A DNA stretch of 20,326 bases, from positions 1 through 20,326 of IMG/VR virus record IMGVR_UViG_3300017782_002169, one strand, 5' to 3'. The notes under the pieces are model-generated. The model did no database searches, was not told the DNA's origin, and was given only the letters and a program-made list of their open reading frames with translations. This DNA comes from a virus. Numbering within the stretch: position 1 is the stretch's first letter; each line of letters begins with the position of its first letter. Shown here in pieces: positions 1-17,882 of the stretch. A program made the position numbers and the translations under genes.

Positions 1-234
1 GATATTAGATGAACCTATTTGGTTTATATCTAAAGTCATGCTAATACCATCAAGGTCAAGAGCAGTCATAGTACCTGATACAGCATTAGTTCCACCTATA
101 AGGTTAGAGCTTCCAAGTTGTTCTAGGTCTATAGATGCAGTGTTACCACTTTGGTCTACATAAATTTCGTTATCCGCGTATGTTTGCAATGCACTCAGCA
201 TCACAATCAGGCTCATTAAGTTTAGTTTCTTCAT
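1..234 (-). CDS. Secreted curlin-repeat-like protein (5' part, runs off the window)
   Basis: Seventy-eight codons are visible, open to the left edge. The first 20 residues form a clear Sec signal peptide (MKKLNLMSLIVMLSALQTYA, cleavage likely after QTYA). The mature part begins DNEIYVDQSGNTASIDLEQL and goes on with GSSNLIGG. Near the edge comes MTLDINQIGSSN. The spacing Q.G....I.L.Q.G..N is that of curlin repeats in CsgA/CsgB. ATG 234 is preferred because the basic n-region MKKL and the hydrophobic core begin there; the upstream GGAAAT is a weak ribosome site. It overlaps the CsgG-like gene by 65 bases in another frame. It is the likely cargo of the CsgG/CsgF-like pore, or an amyloid-like or beta-solenoid surface protein. 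Confidence 0.8.
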   Translation of the reverse strand, partial: MKKLNLMSLIVMLSALQTYADNEIYVDQSGNTASIDLEQLGSSNLIGGTNAVSGTMTALDLDGISMTLDINQIGSSNI

Positions 235-1042
235 ATTTCCAGTACCCTTTATCGTAACCGATAATAATAAGTTCCAATACAGCACCTTCTATAGCTTTCA
301 TTAAGGCTATAGTGGTACTTTCGTTGCGTGAAACACCAAATTCCACTTCAACTAATTCAGTACCCATTTCTATGAATTTAAACACATCTTGTGACTGACC
401 ATAGCTAAGTATTGTCTTGCTAGATAACACTTCTACTAATATTTCACCAGTAGCTACAGACACCATTCTAAGGCTTACTGTGATAGTATCTTCACGATAC
501 TGAACACTTGTGCCTATTCCTAAATATCTAGCACCTGCACCACCTGTGATTAGATTACTATCATACGACACAACAGCACCTTCAAGCAAGACACCTGCAA
601 ATAACAAGGGCATGATAGTTTTTTTATCTTGTAATTCTTCTCTTGTACTTCTTATAATTTGTCTTTCTTTTGTTAAGTTATCAAGACCAACTCTTTCTAC
701 AACTCTAAAGAATTCACCATTACTTGCATGTTTTAATGCTCTTATTAAAAGGTTGCTTGGTGCTTGGGTTATAGCACTAGAAAACAAAGCAAATTCACTG
801 TTACTCTTTCGTTGTCCTGTTTGGTCTGTAAAGGCTGTAGGATATACAGCTACTACTGGTTTTGTTAAGGGTGGTTGTACGTTTAATAAATCTTTTGATT
901 GTAAAGAAAAAATACTTGGTTTATCTTTTCTTTCTTTTTCAAATCTTAATTGTTGTGTGTCTTGTATAACACTAGTAACGGAACAACTAGAAAGTAAAAG
1001 AACCAATAGGTAATGTGATCTCTGTGATATTGCCATCTGCAT
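170..1042 (-). CDS. csgG: CsgG-like outer-membrane curli secretion channel (lipoprotein)
   Basis: A 290-residue protein close to the length of E. coli CsgG (277 as precursor). The signal sequence has a lipobox LLSSC with lipidated Cys20. CsgG-family hallmarks follow in order: KPVVAVYPTAFTDQTGQ (61-77), FFRVVERVGLDNLTKERQII (111-130), EGAVVSYDSNLITGGAGARY (154-173), then LGIGTSVQY, VSVATGEIL (194-202), SSKTILSYG (207-215) and VFKFIEMG. CsgG forms a nonameric beta-barrel pore that exports unfolded curli subunits. The pore-lining loop (about 78-95) differs from E. coli at several positions, while Phe87 may match the constriction Phe. The gene overlaps csgF by 56 bases and the curlin-like gene by 65. 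ATG 1036 is an alternative start; neither has a clear ribosome site. Confidence 0.93.
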   Translation of the reverse strand: MQMAISQRSHYLLVLLLSSCSVTSVIQDTQQLRFEKERKDKPSIFSLQSKDLLNVQPPLTKPVVAVYPTAFTDQTGQRKSNSEFALFSSAITQAPSNLLIRALKHASNGEFFRVVERVGLDNLTKERQIIRSTREELQDKKTIMPLLFAGVLLEGAVVSYDSNLITGGAGARYLGIGTSVQYREDTITVSLRMVSVATGEILVEVLSSKTILSYGQSQDVFKFIEMGTELVEVEFGVSRNESTTIALMKAIEGAVLELIIIGYDKGYWKYEETKLNEPDCDAECIANIRG

Positions 1043-1529
1043 CCGTTATTTTAAGTGTTATAAATTGTCCATCAGATGTGTATTCTATAATATTACCTTC
1101 TAGTTCAATAGTACCTGAATCACTTGGGGTTTCACCAAAAAGGTTTTCTACTAATTGTCTTGATAGTTGTGCATAGATACGAGATTCCAAGTTACGCATG
1201 AATCTAGCTAGTGTAGTGTTTTCTTTATCCCTTTCTATTTGTTCTTGTAAGGCTTTGATTTCCTCTTTGATTGTCATTTTTCTATTAAACTCTTGGTTCT
1301 CAATAGTCAAATAATGTGAACTAGTATTGACACCACTAAATGATGGGGATTTAAACTTGTGAACTATTTGGTCTGCTGTTAGATGTTGTACAAAGATACC
1401 ACAGAATAAAATCACACCAATTAGCATAACTAATTTTATCAACCTATCTTTTTCATAAGCTTCTTTTCTTTGTAAAAGTTCAGCTTTACTAGGCCTACCT
1501 CTTTTTCTTTTAATCTTTTCTTTGGTCAT
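987..1529 (-). CDS. csgF: CsgF-like curli assembly/transport protein with basic N-terminal extension
   Basis: A 180-residue protein. ATG 1529 is chosen because AGGCGG lies six bases upstream; the longer reading begins with TTG at 1547. Residues 1-31 are strongly basic with an AT-hook-like KRKRGRPSKAE. A hydrophobic segment follows at about 32-50 and a possible cleavage after VQHLTA (residue 52). The rest tracks CsgF. HKFKSPSFSGVNTSSHYLTI aligns with the CsgF mature N-terminus (F.FRNPNFGG....A.LL in E. coli). A helix LARFMRNLESRIYAQLSRQL follows, then IIEYTSDGQFITLKITDADG, equivalent to the C-terminal strands. In curli biogenesis CsgF plugs into the CsgG pore and couples secretion to nucleation. 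The next gene is CsgG-like. Confidence 0.82.
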   Translation of the reverse strand: MTKEKIKRKRGRPSKAELLQRKEAYEKDRLIKLVMLIGVILFCGIFVQHLTADQIVHKFKSPSFSGVNTSSHYLTIENQEFNRKMTIKEEIKALQEQIERDKENTTLARFMRNLESRIYAQLSRQLVENLFGETPSDSGTIELEGNIIEYTSDGQFITLKITDADGNITEITLPIGSFTF

Positions 1530-1860
1530 CTCTATCCGCCTTTGCAATTTTACTGCTATCTATGAGTTGTGGTACGCCAAGAATAGTTTTAATTAAAGTG
1601 TCTTGTCTTATGATTTCATTGTCTAAACTACGCACCCTATCAATTAATGCTACTAGTATTCCATGTTGTGAGTCAAGTTTTGTTCCCAGTCTTTCTTCTA
1701 TTGAAGCAATCTGTGATTCTACTTTTTCATCAACATTATCAAGTTTAGTTTCCATGCCATCTACAATACGCATGATAAGTTTGTATATAAACCAACCAAG
1801 ACCAACAGAAGCGGCTATTGGAAACCCAACTTCCTGTATAACCTTAATTGCCATATCCAT
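1510..1860 (-). CDS. Small membrane protein with coiled coil (holin-like)
   Basis: A 116-residue protein with one N-terminal membrane segment at about 12-31 (GFPIAASVGLGWFIYKLIMR). A long charged helix with heptad-like spacing follows (about 33-92: METKLDNVDEKVESQIASIE and onward), ending in a hydrophilic tail ADRDDQRKD. This layout resembles single-span BhlA/UviB-type holin-like proteins and other small phage membrane proteins at the end of tail operons. No endolysin or spanin is visible in the window. The start lies 15 bases after the preceding stop with no clear Shine-Dalgarno sequence, suggesting reinitiation. ATG 1854, two codons on, is an alternative. The holin role is only an inference from topology and position. 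Confidence 0.65.
   Translation of the reverse strand: MDMAIKVIQEVGFPIAASVGLGWFIYKLIMRIVDGMETKLDNVDEKVESQIASIEERLGTKLDSQHGILVALIDRVRSLDNEIIRQDTLIKTILGVPQLIDSSKIAKADRDDQRKD
1536..1541 (-). promoter_or_regulatory. Shine-Dalgarno-like AGGCGG deciding the CsgF-like start
   Basis: AGGCGG on the minus strand lies six bases before ATG 1529. It supports this start over TTG 1547, for which the site would fall inside the coding region. Confidence 0.6.
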
Positions 1861-11500: not shown

Positions 11501-13555
11501 TGAACTAAATACATTATTACTAGAGAAGTGTCTAGCTACTACATAATAATTAGAGTTAGACATCAAATTAGGTATTACTGCCTTTGTCTTTCCTTTACCT
11601 ACTAAAATAGAACCAATATATGTTCCTGAAGATGTGCCATATAATATTTCTGTACCTTGTATTAAATCATCAGGGTTGTTTGTCCAACTTGCATCTATGT
11701 TTACTTTACTTGTAGTTGAATCTAATTGTAAATCTACTGTAAGAGATAAATTAGTTGGTGCTGTTACGCTAAAACTACCTGTAGGAACGCTAGAGCCTTC
11801 GTCTATGGGGCTTGTATAAGAAGAAGAAGCAAATGCATATACAGAAGAATCAATCTCTTTAATGTCAAGTCTAGTAGCCAACATTGGAACATCATTTTGC
11901 TCTATAACTTCTAGATTTGTGCTTAAAACTTCAAAGACTTTGTTTGTGTAACCTAATCTTTCATTGGTTAAGTAAACCCAATCAAAAGGTTGCAATTGCA
12001 TATAAGCGATATTACATAAGACTGATAATGCTACCTCCTGTCTGCTGTGTAATATTGCTGTTCTTTGTAACCTTTGTGCCATTGTTGTGTTGTCAGTAAA
12101 TGGCAACTGTATTTCTAAAGTTTTTCTATAATTAGCCTGTGATTCTCCTGTTGGCGTATCTTCACTTAAAAATGTATTACTGGTGTCAGGATTTACTGTA
12201 GTTTCTGTAGGTGAATCAGTTGCAACATAATTATTATTACCATCAACATAGACTGCTTTTACTGTATTAAAGGTTTCACCACTAGTCTGTTTAGTTGATA
12301 TAGAGATCGGTGCTAATAAATTATCATCTGTAATTGTCATTTCAGGTGTAACAGTAGCACCTGCAAACATAACAAACTTACCATTTATATAAGACATTTT
12401 ACCTGCACAAGAACTAAGCAACCCTTCAATAACACCTGCACCATCTGCAGTCATATTAGTAATTCCATTAGCTTTATATGAGACTTCATTAAACGTTAGT
12501 GTCACACCATCAGCGATAGTTACTGCTGAAGATAAGGTTACAACTAAACCTGTTCTTTTGATTACTGTTACAGTGCCTGTAATTCCTGTTCCTGTAACTG
12601 TTTGTCCTATATCTATTAGTGTATTAGTGACTGCTGTATCAATTGTTACTGTAGTAGAACTGCTTATAGCACCATTAACTGTAGCTGTTGTTATTGCACC
12701 TGCGGCAGTTTCACAAGTATTAGCGGCTGATGCAAATCCACCCAGTGCTGTAGTGTCATTGATCTCACTAGATGTAGCTTTTAAACCATATGTTGTATTG
12801 GTTAGATAATCTCTTACACATAGAGCAGGGTTAGTTCCAATATCCTTACCAGTGCTATCAGTGTATGCTGTTTCACCACTTCTAGGGTCATAAACCTTTT
12901 TACCTTTTATAACAAAAGATAAAGGTGGTATTCCACCACCAAAGGCTTCTGAATCAAAAACAAATTGAATTAGCATGTAAGCCAAGCCTGTGAACTTGTC
13001 ATTATTATCTAAAGATGTGTTACTGGTGACTGTTGAATCAGCACTTGTCTGTGAGCCATCTAAAAATTTATATCTTAGTAATTTACCACTACCAAAATTG
13101 TTTTCATTATCTGTATTAATAAATTTACTATTTGTGGCAACTTGAAAACCACCACTTGATGTTGTTGTAAGCTTTACATCATTGACCAATACTTCTTCCA
13201 AACTCTCTACTTCGTGTCCTGCCAGTACGACTATCATTGATAGCTTGTAGTTATCTGTTCCTGAAGTTTCTATATGGGTGATTGTTCCACCAACTCTAGC
13301 TTTACCATATATGATTTGTCTAGGTGATGTAGCTGTTCTTGTTGCTACCTTTGTACCAAAGTTTTCAGAAGTAGCATTCGTACCTTTTGACATCAGACCA
13401 CCAACTAAGGCACTTAATGCTGATGCAGTTGCTACTTGTAAAGCAGTCAATCCTGTAAGAGCTAATGTTGTTGTACTTAATAAAAATGCTGTACCTGTTA
13501 CTACTAAAAATGTTACAACAAATACTGTTACTGCCGCTTTGAGTGCTTTAGCCAT
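2501..13555 (-). CDS. Giant tail-tip / receptor-binding protein (J-like hub fused to fibre)
   Basis: A 3684-residue single frame. Residues 8-53 are hydrophobic, as in many J-like proteins. Residues 70-590 resemble the lambda J hub (RQIIYGKARVGG at 79-90; GGIPPLSFVIKGKKVYD at 207-223; LLSSCAGKMSYINGKFVMFAG near 380-399), interrupted by a small beta insert at about 284-356. Two FnIII-like domains lie at 597-697 and 700-800. A LamG-like lectin fold is at about 1058-1278, from LLHYFPLNG to GKLSDVRFYTKA. Residues 1660-3050 hold marine-fibre repeats (for example IQGNLEVQGTTTTIDTANLD at 1736-1755, DLRLYHNGTNSIIQN at 1897-1911, DVGIGVQSP at 2856-2864). The end (3051-3684) is probably receptor-facing, with a repeated IxADKIAANTIT stretch at 3507-3530. 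No C-terminal S74 chaperone is seen. GGAGA precedes the ATG by seven bases. Confidence 0.9.
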   Translation of the reverse strand: MAKALKAAVTVFVVTFLVVTGTAFLLSTTTLALTGLTALQVATASALSALVGGLMSKGTNATSENFGTKVATRTATSPRQIIYGKARVGGTITHIETSGTDNYKLSMIVVLAGHEVESLEEVLVNDVKLTTTSSGGFQVATNSKFINTDNENNFGSGKLLRYKFLDGSQTSADSTVTSNTSLDNNDKFTGLAYMLIQFVFDSEAFGGGIPPLSFVIKGKKVYDPRSGETAYTDSTGKDIGTNPALCVRDYLTNTTYGLKATSSEINDTTALGGFASAANTCETAAGAITTATVNGAISSSTTVTIDTAVTNTLIDIGQTVTGTGITGTVTVIKRTGLVVTLSSAVTIADGVTLTFNEVSYKANGITNMTADGAGVIEGLLSSCAGKMSYINGKFVMFAGATVTPEMTITDDNLLAPISISTKQTSGETFNTVKAVYVDGNNNYVATDSPTETTVNPDTSNTFLSEDTPTGESQANYRKTLEIQLPFTDNTTMAQRLQRTAILHSRQEVALSVLCNIAYMQLQPFDWVYLTNERLGYTNKVFEVLSTNLEVIEQNDVPMLATRLDIKEIDSSVYAFASSSYTSPIDEGSSVPTGSFSVTAPTNLSLTVDLQLDSTTSKVNIDASWTNNPDDLIQGTEILYGTSSGTYIGSILVGKGKTKAVIPNLMSNSNYYVVARHFSSNNVFSSNTGEQSVNTGLPSAPSAPSNLSATSGKALVIGLEWDAPSNSDLRAVKVYRHTSNFTPTDDTYLVSTITSEPSEKQKLTFGLEDGLTAGTTYHFAVRAINHSGTHSTFTSTTTGSFTLVDAGDIDLPDFSGYFHKEGNTTTALTSSQFNTEYGRTPLTDDILIMVNTSVTPKVSKAYKWNGSTFVEINNFTTGDLVVDGTLAGTKIIAQTISADRVDTDFITTLNLLTTSATITNNIVVGTGNNVFKAETGVGIQLGHATFSSAPFSVTEAGVLKAESGTIGGINLASDKLYVGTGTVNNSNTAFYVDDNGNFSLKDKVYWNGTSLSVDGNITATTLDVVEANIQNLTLTLGGGILQDGSGNNLTVTSVINPDFPVDGLLHYFPLNGFSDPNDTTPADIIDVVSNVTGVITGSNGSFATDSPNGQSYVNGADTGITLLNNAQATTWQSTTGDYTVALWFKSTTESGVAGARIIGRDASDFWSLAIDQNDTGNQSVRLYTDGENVSYNGASVNEWHHLALVVNGTTSAKLYLDGVLRATDTNIAYTTNSRPVVLGCNTESSIVNTNDVFIGKLSDVRFYTKAITDKQVQSLYMNPAGGLPAKIEGDLFVTNSITADKLIVNSLSSLSANLGSITAGQINIGSGAFTVNTAGVLDATGASINGTFIAGSGTNIFTADTNGIYLGNGTFANAPFKVLGDGEVQTTKTFTAGVAGSGQIAKMSGTGDYRFWSGSESPSNASFAVDKDGKAIARNLVLKLTDGTVYFDSETGFSDSALSQIGRSSNTKVTTVSTTTDSDSEYEEITVTANTDVNVTVSIDSNFGGFADEASSNDAIDNAEKEVPANFTLTIEHSSDGGSSYNTVVTDEFRRVNDRLNPDTSPDADEYKINSNVQLLFISGQGGTLYLGSTTTSLGTPTTNVGCVDSDGRTTLSHTGLTLTGTSSGTTHRIKATVSSTDTVNGQTTGTPNYNAVSNNVTSTAPRVISVTDPSGDGFYVDNGTGSTVPPEGDITGVQITTASSGGLTGGANFTSGDASFTLALASSIDGARTFTNNVVIQGNLEVQGTTTTIDTANLDVKDKNITLNYGTGDTSANANGAGITIQDAVSAGNDATLTWATTSDRFNFSHGLDFPDSALLILGSDDDLRLQHTGSSANISNYTGDIDIKNFADDSDIKFWSDDGTGASAIYFRLDGSMAGSGALYTKWSDNSRISLGDSNDLRLYHNGTNSIIQNVTNCDLVIQNDFLAKDIYIKSDNGSGGVTTYFRADGSTGQAQLFFYGAEKLNTTTDGIEVTGSISSGAVNSTANITATGTINVNHNGTADTFINVGTNTSSNHYAYIDLVGDSTYTDYGLRLIRNNSGANTSSAIYHRGTGNLIIETDEVASIKLRTDSSDALTIDGTQNSTFQGNVYVKGSALDVGENDAVSGTISAYGAATGNEGGELRLYTTAANDTTYDFYRIDVEGDDLRIGRQGETDITLYQTGGVTFAGTINSGAISSSGASTFSSTVNIDGELRLDARLDGGTGDNVLAFKDSGGDYSIRHNVNDGNGNYSISIGYSGTGSGQYAVTGDGVGKISMQGHGVDGAISLNSAPIGTAGNNISFSMGLLVDHDSVRVGASADGTGLVDGEGTKVFDASANAFATSYSIGTQEVITSARNLTNIAGVSAESLSIGDIPSSIDGVLAIRSDSDSHAITIYEPVGANENWQLGVDADGDLGFYNSGSTTASVTFQDSGNISVTGTVDGRDIATDGTKLDGISAGANAITINNNANNRIITGGDVTNTLNGESGLTYDSTVLNLTGQLTATSHVQSGANSGGVALTINDGYGNANVTWNHLGGVPEQDGNSARIEVNTDSGSNAIMYFELKSSVTSGTAVQTDSIMQLNDNGLYMDTGKYIHGGGGVTIRADDVDFIVRDNTDTTKNFIYRDFSESKLYLGSGTAAVTLRSNLDALGNIIRAGDLGELLILNDGSNSIIRSSDDLLIQRNTTPRSAIKVTDSTGKVELYYAGSAVLETTSTGISVTDTINFTDPTAFIRNSQDASGQIIISVLNPSSEAKAVRWDGANNANGAWRPEVTAISNLGLTNRVWDNLYINTIKMGANNDTFVNSTRDVTANSAEIGNIETTTNFPLIVKSGTNDHAIAIEEASGAETWQLGVDSAGSLRFYNSGATTSTVVFNDAGDVGIGVQSPVSELNLDGRLVLDAGTRSNPSGVNSALVIDYRDTGSEEQARIRSRDWDGSAWKDLRIEASSIRLDVEGTPALTLDSAGVANFASSIYLVGNGTPIAFMGSGTDANYRNFAYELGGHHYVTNRHTSGDLVLMSNNGVAAGETTRMTLQSGSGTQDIDITNANLDLNSNNINAVGTLTTNGITKIVASPLVMGTGSSYQNYVVDGLSEAHQYLDTRDYMVSKGHHAGAKYIVGGHSGQIHLIVPYVDGTDVFVDGVIKIPNAQADGTVYQILAADLSAFSEITADKPISVMATNPSAPTMNTNYSGRVLGLYVDRYQPIDIYVYSPYAQVTVEFYRKSTAPVDASSSSSGDFIYTTTINAGSGFVFQEDVHGGGTSSGTQYFIVKADGLICAESIPQGGGDYTLLSPAGMELIGSSTFSPASFGYTESSVTSSITTATNGNATYYRDNSGKNGIFAYGTADGAGGDAEFAVPIESLSDYYIYNEEDITNFRLVSYKTNTIKVLDSQNDVLYTYDHRAATKSAPLYSSEGTDSGSGGALSTDGPFKFIGTAPFHLVCQNEADDEMVQLGAMQRELYTSKNIDFKSTVGSPVGDISPFDAANNTLTFLTSVAHQHGIITGATLGVVDLSTGELEITQQGDITIKSDSIEADKIAANTITATEIASDTITGAEINVDLLNVKSFDNVSSTIVSHLTAGTKFPLAKTGQSYVQRTNPFTGSNSSFVNVTITQVRDNAGYVAIFSGVLGDVSGGRVQYSLNGSTWVNANGNTNVSWNAGTYRGYTYVYTGQITTLSTSQSTVYWRVYFSGGYNHTQMSLNVMMDNTR
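4991..6481 (-). repeat. Pair of diverged 52-53 residue repeats in the fibre region
   Basis: Residues 2359-2411 and 2804-2855 of the tip protein are copies of one unit; the DNA lies at 6323-6481 and 4991-5146. Both read HAI.I.E..GA..WQLGVD..G.L.FYNSG.TT..V.F.D.G. The second copy leads into VGIGVQSP. The arrangement suggests internal duplication of a fibre module. Confidence 0.8.
7712..8101 (-). repeat. Tandem fibre repeats of the 'LRLxHxGxxxxI' type
   Basis: Residues 1819-1873 and 1893-1948 of the tip protein align as diverged tandem copies. They share D.LRL.H.G....I.N, then D..IK.....G.....YFR.DGS. A third, looser copy is around residues 2639-2697 (LLILNDGSNSIIRSSDDLLI, then GKVELYYAGSAVLETTSTGI). 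These units are common in marine phage fibres and probably form beta-rich trimeric shaft segments. Confidence 0.75.
9722..10384 (-). other. LamG/concanavalin-like domain inside the giant tip protein
   Basis: This encodes residues 1058-1278 of the tip protein. The opening LLHYFPLNGFSDPNDTTPAD, the core DYTVALWFKST and FWSLAID, the NEWHHLALVVNGTTSAKLYL strand and the closing GKLSDVRFYTKAITDKQVQS follow the LamG-like lectin pattern. A carbohydrate-binding role is inferred from the fold. Confidence 0.85.
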
Positions 13556-13967
13556 TAGACACTCTCCATACAGATATTATGTTTACATTCTGTTTAGCTT
13601 CAACCATGTCATCTGAAGGTGTTAAAACTTTAAAACCATCTGAAATACCAACTAATTCTGATTCTTCTTTATAAACCACTAAATCACCTTTTTGCATAAA
13701 TGCTTTGTCTATTTTTTGTAAACCTTTTGCTTTACAAGCCTTTTCAATACTTTTAGAAAGAGTTTTACCATATTCTTTTATTGATCTCATAGCTTCTTCT
13801 TCGTTTTCCCATTTAAGTTTTTCAGGTATTAAATCCTCACCTGTCATAGCTTTAATTACAGCATTAGCAAATTTGCAACAATCCCAAGAACCCCATTTAA
13901 AAGGCACAAACCTGTGCTTGGTTATAAATAAGTCAAATTCTATATTCCAGTCTGTTTTCTTAATCAT
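13548..13967 (-). CDS. NlpC/P60-like (DUF6950-like) tail tip assembly protein
   Basis: A 139-residue protein in the position of the tail peptidase between hub and tip genes. Residues 20-35 (FVPFKWGSWDCCKFAN) match the DUF6950/NlpC-like pattern 'fxWGxxDCcxfaad' around the usual nucleophilic Cys (Cys30, Cys31). The C-terminal part has QKGDLVVYKEESELVGISDG and ends in an SVWRV strand. No His follows the cysteines, so the Cys-His pair of active NlpC/P60 enzymes is not visible. The protein may be structural or only weakly enzymatic. It overlaps the hub stop by one base and the giant tip gene by eight bases. Confidence 0.7.
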   Translation of the reverse strand: MIKKTDWNIEFDLFITKHRFVPFKWGSWDCCKFANAVIKAMTGEDLIPEKLKWENEEEAMRSIKEYGKTLSKSIEKACKAKGLQKIDKAFMQKGDLVVYKEESELVGISDGFKVLTPSDDMVEAKQNVNIISVWRVSNG

Positions 13968-15061
13968 TATTTTTGATGAACTGCATTCCTATCAATTCCA
14001 CTATCTTTTTTATTATGAACTAATATATCATTAGCAAAATAGTTATTGTGTTTATATATTTCAATTAAATTATAAGTCGGTATGTCTGTTTTATTATCTA
14101 TAACTTCTATGCTTGTTATTTCTAAAGAATCTGCATTTTTATCAAATAATCTATCTCCAACTTCCAATTTATCTACATCAAGCCCATGCAGTTCTTTTGT
14201 TGCTGATGGGTTTATACTTACCCAACCTTTTTCAATGCAATACAAAGGGTGACACTGCGTTGTATGTAGTGAATTATCTTTATAGTTGATGATATAAGTT
14301 TGTTTATTAGTTGTTTTGTGTAATTTTTGTACGCTTGATTTAACTAATAAATTATTGTCTATGTCATAAGACATAATTTCATCAAGCATTTTTATATCTT
14401 CAATATTTTTAGTTGTACCATCGCCCATAAGAATTTGTGTACCTGCAACAAAACAACCACCTCCACCACCACCAGTGTTAGATGATGATCTCCCCCATAT
14501 AATCTCTTTATCTTGTAAAGACTGTACTCTGTTAAAACAATTATCAGTAGAATCTATATACTGTTGTGATTCTTTTGTATATCTAAGATTTGATGGTCTT
14601 TCTAAATCTATAAGTCTATTTTCAGCATCAACAGTAATAGTAGAACCATTAGGGTCATCATTTATTACCATAGATTGCATACGACCTTTAAACAAAGTCA
14701 TAGTACCCACAACAGTGTCTGTACCACCTGAAAGATATCCTAAATAAACAGTTATAAATCTGTTTTGATAGTTTTCTGTAAGTGCTAAGTCAAGAACAGT
14801 TGCATCCATACCTGCTAAAGAAACAGACAAACCACTGGACTTTAATTCTAAGGTATCTTCTATGTTTGATATAGACAATAAAGTGCCAACACCAAGATAT
14901 GTTGCACCATCAATCGTGAGATCATAATCACCTGACCAAAGTCTAATTGTTTCTGTGTCAAATTCAGCTTTGACTGCTAAGAATAATACTTGATGGTCTG
15001 CTTCAAGGTAACTTTGTATTGATGTATCAATCCCACCCCTGTTTGGCACAAAATGAGACAT
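13967..15061 (-). CDS. Tail hub protein (DUF2163-like) with C-terminal Hint domain
   Basis: A 364-residue two-part protein. Residues 1-190 look like a DUF2163-type tail hub as in GTA clusters: YLEADHQVLFLAVKAEFD, then TIRLWSGDYDLTIDGATYLG, a strand-rich core with TLFKGRMQSM, and an end NCFNRVQSLQDKEIIWG. A serine and glycine linker with six consecutive glycines (197-202) follows. Next comes a Hint domain from Cys203 to Asn350, and finally 14 residues ending VHQK. The Hint part shows CFVAGTQILMGDGTTKNIED, a TxxH block B (Thr268, His271) and a terminal LVHN. The stop of the distal tail gene abuts this ATG, with GAGG nine bases upstream. The hub part sits below the tail tube and binds the tip protein. 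The role of the Hint part is inferred self-processing. Confidence 0.8.
   Translation of the reverse strand: MSHFVPNRGGIDTSIQSYLEADHQVLFLAVKAEFDTETIRLWSGDYDLTIDGATYLGVGTLLSISNIEDTLELKSSGLSVSLAGMDATVLDLALTENYQNRFITVYLGYLSGGTDTVVGTMTLFKGRMQSMVINDDPNGSTITVDAENRLIDLERPSNLRYTKESQQYIDSTDNCFNRVQSLQDKEIIWGRSSSNTGGGGGGCFVAGTQILMGDGTTKNIEDIKMLDEIMSYDIDNNLLVKSSVQKLHKTTNKQTYIINYKDNSLHTTQCHPLYCIEKGWVSINPSATKELHGLDVDKLEVGDRLFDKNADSLEITSIEVIDNKTDIPTYNLIEIYKHNNYFANDILVHNKKDSGIDRNAVHQK
14012..14455 (-). other. Hint / bacterial intein-like domain within the tail hub gene
   Basis: This stretch encodes 148 residues (203-350 of the hub protein). It has the catalytic Cys first, splicing block A (FVAGTQILMGDG), block B (HTTQCHPLYC with Thr268 and His271), an F-like block (IPTYNLIEIYKHNNYFAND) and the C-terminal His349-Asn350. 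There is no homing endonuclease insertion and no LAGLIDADG motif. The residue after Asn is Lys, not Cys, Ser or Thr. That is unlike a canonical intein and like Hint or bacterial intein-like domains that cleave or ligate proteins without standard splicing. Confidence 0.85.
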
Positions 15062-15970
15062 TTAAACTACCTCAATACATGAAAAGGAGATACCATAGTT
15101 AGAAATATTATCTGCATCCCAGTCAACATCTTTTGTTGTTAATCTGAATAAACCTTTAGCAGGATTATTAAACAATTTAACATTATTAACATAACCAGTT
15201 CTTAACTTAGGTTCTATTCTTACAGAATATTCATTTTTAGCTGAACCACCTTCATCTGTTTCAACTGCATCGCTTGTAACCATTACATATTGTGTTGGAA
15301 CATAGTTTGATGATGTTTCTGTTGAAGATGTGCCTATTCCTAAATAATCACCTTTTAATATAGTTCCTGTTCCACTATTTAATTGTGCTTTTATGTTTAT
15401 TCCTTTTGCACCTTTTGCATTACCATTTATGTTACAACCTGTTACATCTGCTTCTGTAACTAAGGAGTCATAGTCTACTGGGTCAACTACAACTGTATAA
15501 TCATTAGTTTTAGTAACTATCTTATGTGTGCCATTGTTTGCAGGATTAGTTGCTCCTGATACAACAAAAAAATCACCTTCGTTAGCGGCACTGAAAGGTG
15601 TAGTGTTAGATGGTGCTGTTATTGTGTTGGTTGATGAAGCAAAGTCTAGTTCTATATTGTTAATCCCAACTCTTTTTTGGAATAAAAATGTAGTTCCGTT
15701 ATAAGTACCTTGTTGATTCAAAGCATCAGGGTCTGCAAATTTAAAATGATTGACTGGTCCATTAAGTTCTAAAAGAAAGGACTGCCAATTCTTAGCAACA
15801 TCTCTACGCATAGGTGGAAGTGTCACAGTAGCTTCCCAGTAAACACCATCATATTCTTGTGTTCTTACTTTTCCAGTATATGGCGAAGCTACACTACCTA
15901 CTGCTCTTTTAAGTGTGAAATTACTCCTAATAAAATTAGGGGTTGTTGGCATTGTTATTATTTTAGCCAC
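15062..15970 (-). CDS. Distal tail protein-like
   Basis: A 302-residue protein occupying the distal-tail slot directly after the tape measure. The N-terminal region (MPTTPNFIRSNFTLKRAVG, then a GKVRTQEYDGVYWEATVTLP strand pair and PPMRRDVAKNWQSFLLELNG) resembles the opening domain of distal tail proteins that ring the end of the tail tube. The middle (about 100-200) is a beta-rich, low-complexity domain, and the C-terminal 60 residues return to a strand-rich fold. The start is GTG at 15970, supported by AAGGAG eight bases upstream; the first ATG is six codons later and less well placed. The name is based on position and the N-terminal pattern. Confidence 0.75.
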   Translation of the reverse strand: MAKIITMPTTPNFIRSNFTLKRAVGSVASPYTGKVRTQEYDGVYWEATVTLPPMRRDVAKNWQSFLLELNGPVNHFKFADPDALNQQGTYNGTTFLFQKRVGINNIELDFASSTNTITAPSNTTPFSAANEGDFFVVSGATNPANNGTHKIVTKTNDYTVVVDPVDYDSLVTEADVTGCNINGNAKGAKGINIKAQLNSGTGTILKGDYLGIGTSSTETSSNYVPTQYVMVTSDAVETDEGGSAKNEYSVRIEPKLRTGYVNNVKLFNNPAKGLFRLTTKDVDWDADNISNYGISFSCIEVV

Positions 15971-17882
15971 CTAATAGACTCCTTCTAAATGTACCACCAC
16001 GCATTGCTGATTCTTGAACTGCCGCTTTTGTTACATCTGCTATCTGTGGCATCATCTTTGTAACCTCTGCTCTTACAGTAGGTACTATGCCTGTAGCAAA
16101 ATTGATTGATTGATTTATAACAGTAGTACCACCACCACCCATAGCGTTTTTACTATTCATGTTATTCATGATAGTACCGCCAGTATTAGGTACAAATATT
16201 TCAGGACCACGTTCTCCTACCAGTGTTGCTCTACCACCTTGTATAGTTCCACCACCTGCTTTGCCTGTTGGCATAGTTGGTAAACCTACAGCAGTGAATA
16301 AAGCGTTCATCATAGGTTTTATTACTTGCATTTTTAAGAATTCAGCTATTACTTGTTGAATCATATCACCAACTAAGTTTCTAAATGATACTAAAGCATT
16401 TTCACCATTTTGAAGTGCGTTTAAAAAATCATTAGCAAACTGATCACTAGCTCTTTCAAGAGTTTCTGCCATAGCATCTGTAACTTCATCAGTTTTACCC
16501 ATTTCTTCTTTTAATAAACCAAGACTATCAACAACTGCTCCAATCTGTTCTTCTGTTAAGCCATAAAACTTTAACAATTCAGTTTTATCTTCAGATTGTA
16601 ATATTTCATCAATCAATGCTAATTGTGCATTGATTTCTTTAAGAGGGTCTTCTGCATCTTTTGCTAATTTTTGTAGAGGAGTTAGAAATTCTATAAATTT
16701 TTGTTCAGGTGTAAATTCTTCTGTTACCTTGTCATCTTTTTTTTCTAATTTTAGTTGTCTTTCTGCTTCTATTCTTGCATTTATTTTTTTATTTACCTGT
16801 TCAAGTAATTTTACTTCACGTTGTAAAATTTCTAATTCCATTTGAGATTCAACAGAAAAATCTACTGGTGGAAATGTGCCATCTTCTGACTGTGTTTTTA
16901 ATTGTAATAATCTATTTATATCTTTGTTGTATTCTCGTAAGATATTTCTTGATAATTTCAACTGATCAACATCTGAAAGTTTGTCTGTTTTACCAGTTCT
17001 GTCCTCAACTATATCGCCAAGTGTTGCTTGACCTGTTGCTACTCTTACTGATCTTGCAGACTCATTTGCAAACGCTGTTAATCTATCTGTAAGTTTTTTT
17101 AACCTATCTCCTAAACCACCTGTAAAAACTGCATCTGCTAATTGTTTAAAAGCAATACCCATATTTGATGCTTTGGTAGAAAGATTATCCATTTTATTAG
17201 TCATTGCACCACCAAACTGCTTATTTAAAGCCGCAACTAATGTGTCTATCATTGTTGCCGCACCTTCTGTGGTTTTACCAAATTTTGTCAGTTCTTCTTT
17301 GGTCATGCCTAATTCTGTTGTAAGAATTTTTAATGCAGGTATTCCTCTATCATCTAATTGATTTAGTTCTTCTAAGCCTAGACCACCTGAAGCGGCTCTT
17401 TGTGTAATTCTGACCAAGGCTTGGAATGCTCCTAATTGATCTACTGAGGTTGAAGCTGTATCTGCGAATGTCTGTAGCATATCCATGCTAGGTTCAACAC
17501 CTACTGCTTTTAATTGTATAAAGGCTTTGGTTACATCTTCAATTTGAAAAGGTGTTGTTTGTGCAAAAGTAAATATTTTTTGCATTGCTTGTTCGCCTTG
17601 ATTTATACCACCAAATACAGTATTAATAGAATCTCTAAGGTCTTCAAAGCCCATACCAACTTTTGCAACCTTACTGATAGTTGCTCCTACAACAGCTAAA
17701 GAGGCAACTAAAGCAATAGCACCACCTTTTGCTTTTGACATAGCACCTGCCATACCACCAAAAGCTACACCACCAACAGCACCTGTTGTTTTAAGTTTTC
17801 TTTGTATTTGATTTAATTCTTTTTGAAGTTGTTTAGTGTCAGCTTTTATCTGTACAACTAGTTCGTCTATGGGTTTACTCAT
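15963..17882 (-). CDS. Tail tape measure protein
   Basis: A 639-residue protein. Residues 1-32 form a basic amphipathic coiled coil, and 34-78 are a Gly/Ala-rich hydrophobic stretch. The tape-measure N-terminal pattern follows: GFEDLRDSINTVFGG at about 78-92, FTFAQTTPFQIEDVTKAF at 104-121, and AASGGLGLEELNQLDDRGIP at 163-182. A long helical region (260-530) follows, then a Gly-rich tail with VGERGPEIFVP at 555-565, a signature common in tape measures. It sets tail length and is ejected ahead of DNA. At about 0.15 nm per residue the tail would be near 95 nm (an estimate). ATG 17882 overlaps the chaperone stop by eight bases, with GGAG ten bases upstream. Confidence 0.93.
   Translation of the reverse strand: MSKPIDELVVQIKADTKQLQKELNQIQRKLKTTGAVGGVAFGGMAGAMSKAKGGAIALVASLAVVGATISKVAKVGMGFEDLRDSINTVFGGINQGEQAMQKIFTFAQTTPFQIEDVTKAFIQLKAVGVEPSMDMLQTFADTASTSVDQLGAFQALVRITQRAASGGLGLEELNQLDDRGIPALKILTTELGMTKEELTKFGKTTEGAATMIDTLVAALNKQFGGAMTNKMDNLSTKASNMGIAFKQLADAVFTGGLGDRLKKLTDRLTAFANESARSVRVATGQATLGDIVEDRTGKTDKLSDVDQLKLSRNILREYNKDINRLLQLKTQSEDGTFPPVDFSVESQMELEILQREVKLLEQVNKKINARIEAERQLKLEKKDDKVTEEFTPEQKFIEFLTPLQKLAKDAEDPLKEINAQLALIDEILQSEDKTELLKFYGLTEEQIGAVVDSLGLLKEEMGKTDEVTDAMAETLERASDQFANDFLNALQNGENALVSFRNLVGDMIQQVIAEFLKMQVIKPMMNALFTAVGLPTMPTGKAGGGTIQGGRATLVGERGPEIFVPNTGGTIMNNMNSKNAMGGGGTTVINQSINFATGIVPTVRAEVTKMMPQIADVTKAAVQESAMRGGTFRRSLLGG
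15979..15984 (-). promoter_or_regulatory. Shine-Dalgarno AAGGAG supporting a GTG start
   Basis: AAGGAG on the minus strand, within the last codons of the tape measure gene, lies eight bases before GTG 15970. It decides in favour of GTG over the ATG at 15952 for the distal tail gene. Confidence 0.65.

Follow-up and report, generated by a model that had tools for sequence, protein, structure and literature searches.

An apparently mobile Hint domain, followed by a conserved lysine, in the glycine-rich C-terminal tail of a gpL-like phage tail hub protein

Introduction

BIL2 is a Hint domain that was reported to splice by a mechanism giving an isopeptide bond to lysine, on different substrates (PMC8616854, in the part consulted), and it carries RGG ahead of its first cysteine, Cys1 (PMC9200820, likewise). 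It is the only relative of the domain described here that is reported to form isopeptide bonds. In the part of PMC4031507 that was consulted, the type-A BILs are described as ending in His-Asn, lacking a nucleophile at the +1 position, and mostly cleaving; they can also splice, by attack of the freed amine of the C-terminal fragment on the thioester. One BIL described there has tyrosine at +1.

The titles and opening abstracts searched (most subscription papers lay outside the search) gave no description of Hint or BIL domains in phage tails, nor of an intein, a lysine and an isopeptide bond together in phage. The current study concerns such a domain in a viral contig (IMG/VR record IMGVR_UViG_3300017782_002169, positions 1 to 20,326), referred to below as the window, which is the whole stretch of 20,326 nucleotides analysed. 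An earlier note on this DNA had placed a 148-residue Hint domain at the C-terminus of a tail hub protein.

Results and Discussion

The features of the locus are as follows (window coordinates, all on the minus strand).

13967-15061, minus: tail hub ORF of 364 residues, gpL-like, phrog_2048, with a C-terminal Hint domain (ORF and profiles)
14492-15061, minus: hub part common to relatives without the Hint, residues 1-190, ending ...EIIWG (relatives' sequences)
14456-14473, minus: run of six glycines, residues 197-202, preceding the Hint (sequence)
14012-14455, minus: Hint/BIL domain, residues 203-350, 148 residues, no endonuclease inside (profiles, PDB search, model)
14453-14455, minus: Cys203, equivalent to Cys1, predicted nucleophile of the N-S acyl shift (sequence)
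14249-14260, minus: block B, T268-Q-C-H271 (sequence)
14012-14017, minus: terminal His349-Asn350, predicted Asn cyclisation site, with Asn350 at 14012-14014 (sequence)
14009-14011, minus: Lys351, the +1 residue, kept across the Hint subfamily (sequence comparison)
13970-14011, minus: C-flank (C-extein) of 14 residues, KKDSGIDRNAVHQK (sequence)
13548-13967, minus: downstream gene, DUF6950/NlpC-P60-like tail assembly protein in the gpK position (Pfam, PHROGs)

In a PHROGs profile search, residues 12-194 of the hub matched phrog_2048 'tail protein' (2.1e-47), a match that spans the hub part and identifies it as a gpL-like tail hub. PF09931 (baseplate hub, attachment domain) gave 1.9e-5 and 25.3 bits, which is 0.7 under its cut-off of 26. 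The gene order (tube protein, tape measure, distal tail, hub, DUF6950/NlpC-like gene, and a J-like protein of 3684 residues) places the hub gene in the gpL position. An AlphaFold2 model of the whole hub, built from 31 hub relatives, was weak (mean pLDDT 44.4); the first nine Foldseek matches of this poor model were all tail-tip or baseplate proteins, weakly suggesting the same for the N-terminal part of the hub.

Two genes for curli secretion adjoin the tail genes, csgG (PF03783, 1e-47, window 170-1042, minus strand) and csgF (PF10614, 4e-17, window 987-1547, minus strand). The csgGF genes have been reported in pelagiphages. The tape measure protein (window 15963-17882, minus strand) is closest to that of Pelagibacter phage HTVC202P (46.9% over 192 residues), a hint that the host is Pelagibacter-like or a related marine organism.

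Residues 203-350 form a complete Hint domain whose catalytic residues, as read from the sequence, are intact. The first Cys, the TxxH motif, the terminal His-Asn, the six glycines and the 14-residue C-flank were all confirmed at the positions given in the earlier note, which had also proposed a search with Hint/BIL profiles. In profile searches, Pfam AXH scored 3.6e-15 and 56.9 bits against a family cut-off of 33 (residues 204-305, window 14149-14452), while Hom_end_hint, Intein_splicing, Hint, PT-HINT and Vint all stayed under their own Pfam cut-offs and TIGR01445 (intein N-terminal region) was slightly below its cut-off at 1e-4. A sequence search of the PDB gave 6y75/6tmm, the BIL2 structures, as the best match (E 5e-11, residues 201-350), and the BIL 2lwy at 2e-4.

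An AlphaFold2 model of the Hint domain, built from 48 related Hints, had a mean pLDDT of 88.5, with stretches at 90-98 throughout the domain; the flanks were given very low confidence. Foldseek returned BIL2 (6y75/6tmm) first, with an E-value of 7.7e-14 and a TM score of 0.93 by target, and then the BIL 2lwy. Structure comparison gave the same order, with BIL2 at Z 25.3 (rmsd 1.5 A over 149 residues), the C. thermocellum BIL (2lwy) at Z 21.1, inteins at 19 or less and Hedgehog (1at0) at 16.7. In the VIA alignment, 88 of 996 chains had a Z of at least 8, and the 50 matches listed were BILs, inteins, intein endonucleases and Hedgehog. The predicted fold is thus the full Hint horseshoe of beta strands, nearest to BIL domains and above all to Tetrahymena BIL2, and the profile, PDB and fold matches far exceed chance.

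The block-B His column is invariant in the 48 aligned Hints and lies outside both of the patterns by which most of them were fetched. Decay of the catalytic residues in relatives, named in the earlier note as evidence that would count against its proposal, was not seen in any of the seven distinct Hint-bearing hubs: all seven keep Cys1, the block-B T..H, the LVHN end and the +1 Lys. The Hint of one of them, L009, is about half identical to the others, yet its catalytic residues are intact. Over 21 pairs, dN/dS of the Hint was 0.08-0.43. Retention of the active site together with this ratio indicates that the hub Hint is not decaying. The placement of a Hint at the C-terminus of the tail hub therefore holds, and self-processing is likely from the catalytic residues kept.

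The domain has the features of a type-A BIL (an N-terminal Cys, the block-B T..H, a C-terminal His-Asn, and a +1 residue other than Cys, Ser or Thr). Type-B BILs have no intein-like C-terminal motif, and here the LVHN end is present. A BUBL would have ubiquitin-like flanks, and here the N-flank is the tail hub and the C-flank has 14 residues. Type-A BILs lie in variable regions of non-conserved proteins; the hub is a conserved protein, but the part of it that holds the Hint is the variable Gly-rich tail. No LAGLIDADG or HNH homing endonuclease was found in the hub by Pfam, NCBIfam or PHROGs, and a Hint length of 148 residues in all seven distinct hubs leaves no room for one.

Canonical class-1 splicing is unlikely because Cys, Ser or Thr is absent from +1, as the earlier note had concluded for ordinary splicing. 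Its conclusion does not extend to ligation, since type-A BILs are described as splicing without a +1 nucleophile (PMC4031507, in the part consulted). That the Hint is an ordinary class-1 intein, or a product of chance or annotation, is scarcely credible: the hub Hint has its fold and blocks A, B and G in common with inteins, but +1 is Lys, no endonuclease is present and the insertion site is a variable tail past the last conserved hub residue, and chance is excluded by Pfam, the PDB search, the model, the fold matches and conservation in nine further contigs.

Three samples of Hints were drawn, and the identity of the +1 residue is given here for two of them. The first of these was fetched by a C-terminal pattern that left +1 free, its tabulation includes five hub sequences from the hub search, and it held at least 129 unique Hints; among the matches listed, +1 was C in 85, K in 24, S in 4, T in 4, R in 4 and other residues in 8. 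Hints with the block-B motif H[PF]..[KR]GW had K (21) or R (2) at +1 (n=23, among the matches listed), whereas in phage Hints without the KGW motif +1 was C, S or T in 93/106 and K in 3/106, again among the matches listed.

The second sample, on which the claim about +1 is based, used an internal pattern, in block B, and left both ends free; its listing of 97 stretches is complete. Of these, 96 were re-found; two rows without a profile were set aside and identical 80-residue stretches were dropped, leaving 58 unique Hints. HN ends were present in 54 of the 58, and +1 was K in 53 of these 54; the four without a recognised HN comprised two HV, one HS and one in which it was not found. The sole row with Gly at +1 (L342) is cut at its N-side and was left out of clustering. 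Ser1 was called in two rows, one of which (L170) has Cys according to the Gly-run tabulation described below. Clustering at 50% identity, with five hub Hints added, gave 11 clusters, all with Lys at +1. One cluster holds 36 of the 58 clustered Hints, mostly from tandem-Hint proteins, and the 11 clusters are the fairer count.

The C-flanks of the clustered Lys(+1) Hints range from one residue (...HNK ends) to 649, and the host proteins are unrelated. The sole match in bacterial and archaeal genomes, on an archaeal MAG contig, also reads HNKK. The +1 position lies in the host protein, and beyond it the C-flank is not maintained; for this reason Lys+1 seems to belong to the functional module, in the way that Cys, Ser or Thr at +1 does in inteins. 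Candidate roles would be that of its side-chain amine, of its backbone amine after Asn cyclisation, or simply of favouring cleavage.

An IMG/VR scan for hub relatives found the Hint in nine contigs (L001-L009) among the best 80 of 101 relatives, which were analysed. Hubs without the Hint and with their C-terminus present end about 20-30 residues past the conserved ...EIIWG, in a Gly-rich charged tail; most of the Hint-less relatives have a Gly-rich stretch at the position of the glycine run, and some are up to 93% identical to the N-terminal part of the window hub. Both forms occurred within one metagenome in three cases (L002 with L018; L003 with L022 and L073; L005 with L051).

In each Hint-bearing hub the Hint lies between the Gly run and the charged end. 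When its 148 residues are subtracted, the tail after WG has 26-28 residues, compared with 24-32 (median 28) across 43 distinct tails that have no Hint. The charged end varies too much in sequence to be aligned; with Gly removed, the similarity of the C-flank to Hint-less tails was no better than that of shuffles (shuffles were as good in a proportion of 0.11-0.74, seven tails). Removal of the Hint would therefore leave a hub of normal length, a restoration that rests on length and make-up and not on sequence.

The gpL proteins of two isolates, Pelagibacter phage HTVC202P (...WGRA) and Roseobacter phage CRP-811 (...WGRKSS), end soon after WG, which indicates that the Gly-rich tail is itself an optional extension. 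Phage CRP-811 gave the best isolate match that apparently reached into the Hint, and was rejected as a Hint-bearing isolate; the match had extended by chance, and the hub ends ...IVWGRKSS before any Hint. The hub of Campylobacter phage A116 also has no Hint. A tblastn search of the phages collection with the Hint alone returned 21 records, most of which carry the annotation helicase, terminase, portal or hypothetical protein, and no isolate with a Hint in the hub was found in that collection.

A tree was built from 185 codons of 61 distinct hub DNAs, with the Hint and tail excluded; rows that were too short or lacked WG, identical rows, L082, L083 and second copies of the same contigs were omitted. 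The seven Hint-bearing rows are interleaved with the 54 Hint-less rows, which include close relatives. The best tree needs four changes in Hint presence or absence, of which well-supported branches force at least two, and a single clade of Hint-bearing hubs was rejected (AU p 0.013).

The divergence of the Hint was compared with that of its flanks, with the DUF6950/NlpC-P60-like gene as the downstream flank. In nine of the ten pairs among five Hint-bearing phages, synonymous differences per site were 0.06-0.26 in the Hint, 0.37-0.50 in the hub and 0.36-0.46 in the downstream gene (permutation p from 0.023 to <0.0002). The exception was the pair L002-L005, in which the Hint (0.07) equals the hub (0.09). 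Hint DNA is 89-99% identical between phages, and identity drops in the flanks; L005 and L007, for example, are 96-99% identical across the Hint and the 150 nt preceding it, and 69-91% elsewhere in the aligned flanks. The Hint has a GC content of 27%, against 35% for the rest of the hub. In L009 the same site is occupied by an old Hint that is about half identical.

The interleaved hub tree and the low divergence of the Hint indicate that it spreads horizontally at one site and is dispensable for assembly. Judged from these comparisons, it behaves as an allele gained and lost by recombination at a single site. No endonuclease was seen in or near the Hint domain, and plain recombination would suffice for its movement. 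The horizontal spread and the conserved +1 Lys go beyond what the earlier note could see.

Taken together, the hub Hint is probably a mobile BIL of type A, in a subtype with lysine at +1, which would remove itself from the dispensable Gly-rich C-terminal tail of a gpL-like hub. Cys203 would attack the carbonyl of Gly202 to form a thioester where the flexible Gly run ends, and cyclisation of Asn350 would cut the chain before Lys351. Either both ends would stay cut, or the alpha- or side-chain amine of Lys351 would attach the freed tail to the glycines again, in a slow or isopeptide re-ligation. Cleavage is described as outweighing splicing in type-A BILs (PMC4031507, in the part consulted), which counts against re-joining. 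In both cases the mature hub would resemble the Hint-less hubs of related phages, with a fold of about 190 residues and a Gly-rich tail that either keeps or lacks the final 14 residues. That the Hint is active during infection, how the steps follow one another and what becomes of the tail are our inferences.

A wider proposal, possible and put forward tentatively, is that lysine(+1) Hints form a distinct and widespread class in phage virion-like proteins, of which the hub Hint is a mobile example. The side-chain amine of Lys+1 would replace Cys, Ser or Thr and attack the N-terminal thioester, giving an isopeptide-joined (branched) product, or the protein would be passed to the Lys of a neighbour; tail tips and fibres would then have self-made isopeptide joints.

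The self-removal proposed above has to be weighed against a Hint that is folded, inactive in its setting and carried unprocessed as an appendage. A disordered terminal tail might tolerate this too: the site tolerates inserts, its flanks have very low AlphaFold confidence, and another class of Gly-run phage Hints has lost the terminal HN (33/125 matches listed, with the ending KNVNIL). Such a passenger is nevertheless doubtful, given purifying selection and the presence of all catalytic residues and the +1 Lys in all seven distinct hub Hints.

Also unlikely is a covalent linker on the model of BIL2, which conjugates a ubiquitin-like protein to lysine; here a Lys on a second tail-tip protein, or on a surface partner, would attack the Gly thioester and leave the hub C-terminus isopeptide-bonded to it. 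BIL2 is the nearest solved relative by sequence and fold and is reported to act on Lys of different substrates (PMC8616854, as above), the flexible Gly run before Cys1 could present a thioester where BIL2 has RGG (PMC9200820, as above), and related Hints lie at the extreme C-terminus of other virion-like proteins with C-flanks of 1-18 residues (in part among the matches listed). Close hub relatives function without the Hint, however, so that no link can be essential, and the conserved Lys stands in cis at +1, pointing first to an intramolecular reaction.

The earlier note had further suggested an assembly checkpoint, in which hub processing would be a required step licensing the joining of tail-tip proteins. 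The hub gene does adjoin gpK-like and J-like genes, but the idea is now disfavoured and very improbable: 54 of the 61 distinct hub DNAs have no Hint, close relatives among them, the hubs that carry it are dispersed across the hub tree, others whose N-terminal part is as much as 93% identical do without it, and gpL of the isolate HTVC202P ends directly after ...WGRA.

Among virion-like proteins in these contigs, Hints flanked by Gly are common, close to the ends or within loops, as judged from the sequences. The pattern GGG-C-F-x-x-G-T, which fixes Cys1 and Gly by design so that their conservation is no evidence, matched at least 125 places; among the matches listed, 70 end in HN, 33 belong to one class without HN, and in 22 others HN was not found, some of these 22 being shortened by contig or ORF ends. 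The HN-less class (33/125 matches listed; e.g. L093, L107, L113) has about 140 residues, keeps Cys1 and a block-B-like THM, and ends ...KNVNILNA. Hosts of Gly-run Hints include J-like proteins (e.g. L100, L161) and what seem to be tape-measure and fibre-like proteins.

In L222 (2028-5447, minus strand; contig shared with L327), and also in L328, a J-like tail protein (phrog_4271, 7.8e-80 for L222) contains a Hint with Ser1 and HN-KK, placed where the protein is rich in Gly. Its setting in L222 is ...HTSQNPTGGGGKK / Hint / KKDSNTTNQGG..., and no Hint-less relative close enough to define an empty site was found for it.

Tandem-Hint proteins were seen in L142, L233, L243, L246, L272, L276, L286 and L307, with up to four Hints in a row; L142, L233 and L276 have two to four in succession. 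The linkers are of 2 to about 15 residues (HN-IPPK-C, HN-KF-C, HN-RA-C), and most of these proteins finish with a Lys behind the final HN or with a short tail.

If the proposed self-removal is true, a mobile self-processing intein-like module is present in the tail-tip proteins of abundant marine phages, outside the usual replication and packaging genes, and hub and fibre lengths taken from phage genomes may differ from those in virions. The +1 Lys makes it possible to test directly whether an amine can replace the +1 thiol or hydroxyl in Hint domains. On the same condition, the module would also be a compact natural device for joining a protein with a Gly end to Lys without ATP or enzymes.

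Comparison with known Hint systems

The AXH domain (ataxin-1/HBP1 module) is alike in that residues 204-305 of the hub score above the Pfam cut-off, but the AXH model spans just the first two thirds of the Hint, whereas the predicted hub fold is the full Hint horseshoe. Human ataxin-1 AXH chains also match the hub in the PDB sequence search (4e-7), and AXH was above cut-off in all six of the Lys(+1) or hub Hints checked. AXH may be what remains of a former Hint, a relationship for which the literature search found no paper.

The Hedgehog C-terminal (Hog) domain is likewise a C-terminal Hint with a thioester at its N-side. The hub Hint differs from it in showing no sterol-recognition region and in having a terminal His-Asn.

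Phage class-1 inteins (terminase, helicase and others) resemble the hub Hint in fold, Cys1, His-Asn end, patchy occurrence at a fixed site and spread between alleles. Unlike it, they mostly have C, S or T at +1, often carry an endonuclease and are placed in conserved protein cores. At the start of the Hint, window positions 14391-14461 (71 nt) are 80% identical to the start of an intein in the UvsX gene of Klebsiella phage vB_KpnM_Lion_ER11 (L412); this T4-like UvsX gene is split, with a separate homing endonuclease gene between the halves.

Bacterial type-A BILs (e.g. that of Clostridium thermocellum, PDB 2LWY) share with the hub Hint the His-Asn end, the absence of Cys, Ser or Thr at +1, the lack of an endonuclease and the fold. 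The hub Hint differs in residing in a phage tail hub, in being horizontally mobile at a fixed site, and in belonging to a subfamily whose +1 Lys is almost invariant.

BIL2 of Tetrahymena thermophila BUBL1 (PDB 6Y75 and 6TMM; the crystals are of C1A-N143A variants) is the best PDB match in sequence and fold, with Cys1, a terminal Asn and glycines before Cys1 (RGG in BIL2, PMC9200820, in the part consulted; six Gly in the hub). In the ciliate it sits between ubiquitin-like domains and conjugates them to Lys (PMC8616854, in the part consulted), whereas the hub Hint is flanked by a tail hub on its N-side and by 14 residues on its C-side.
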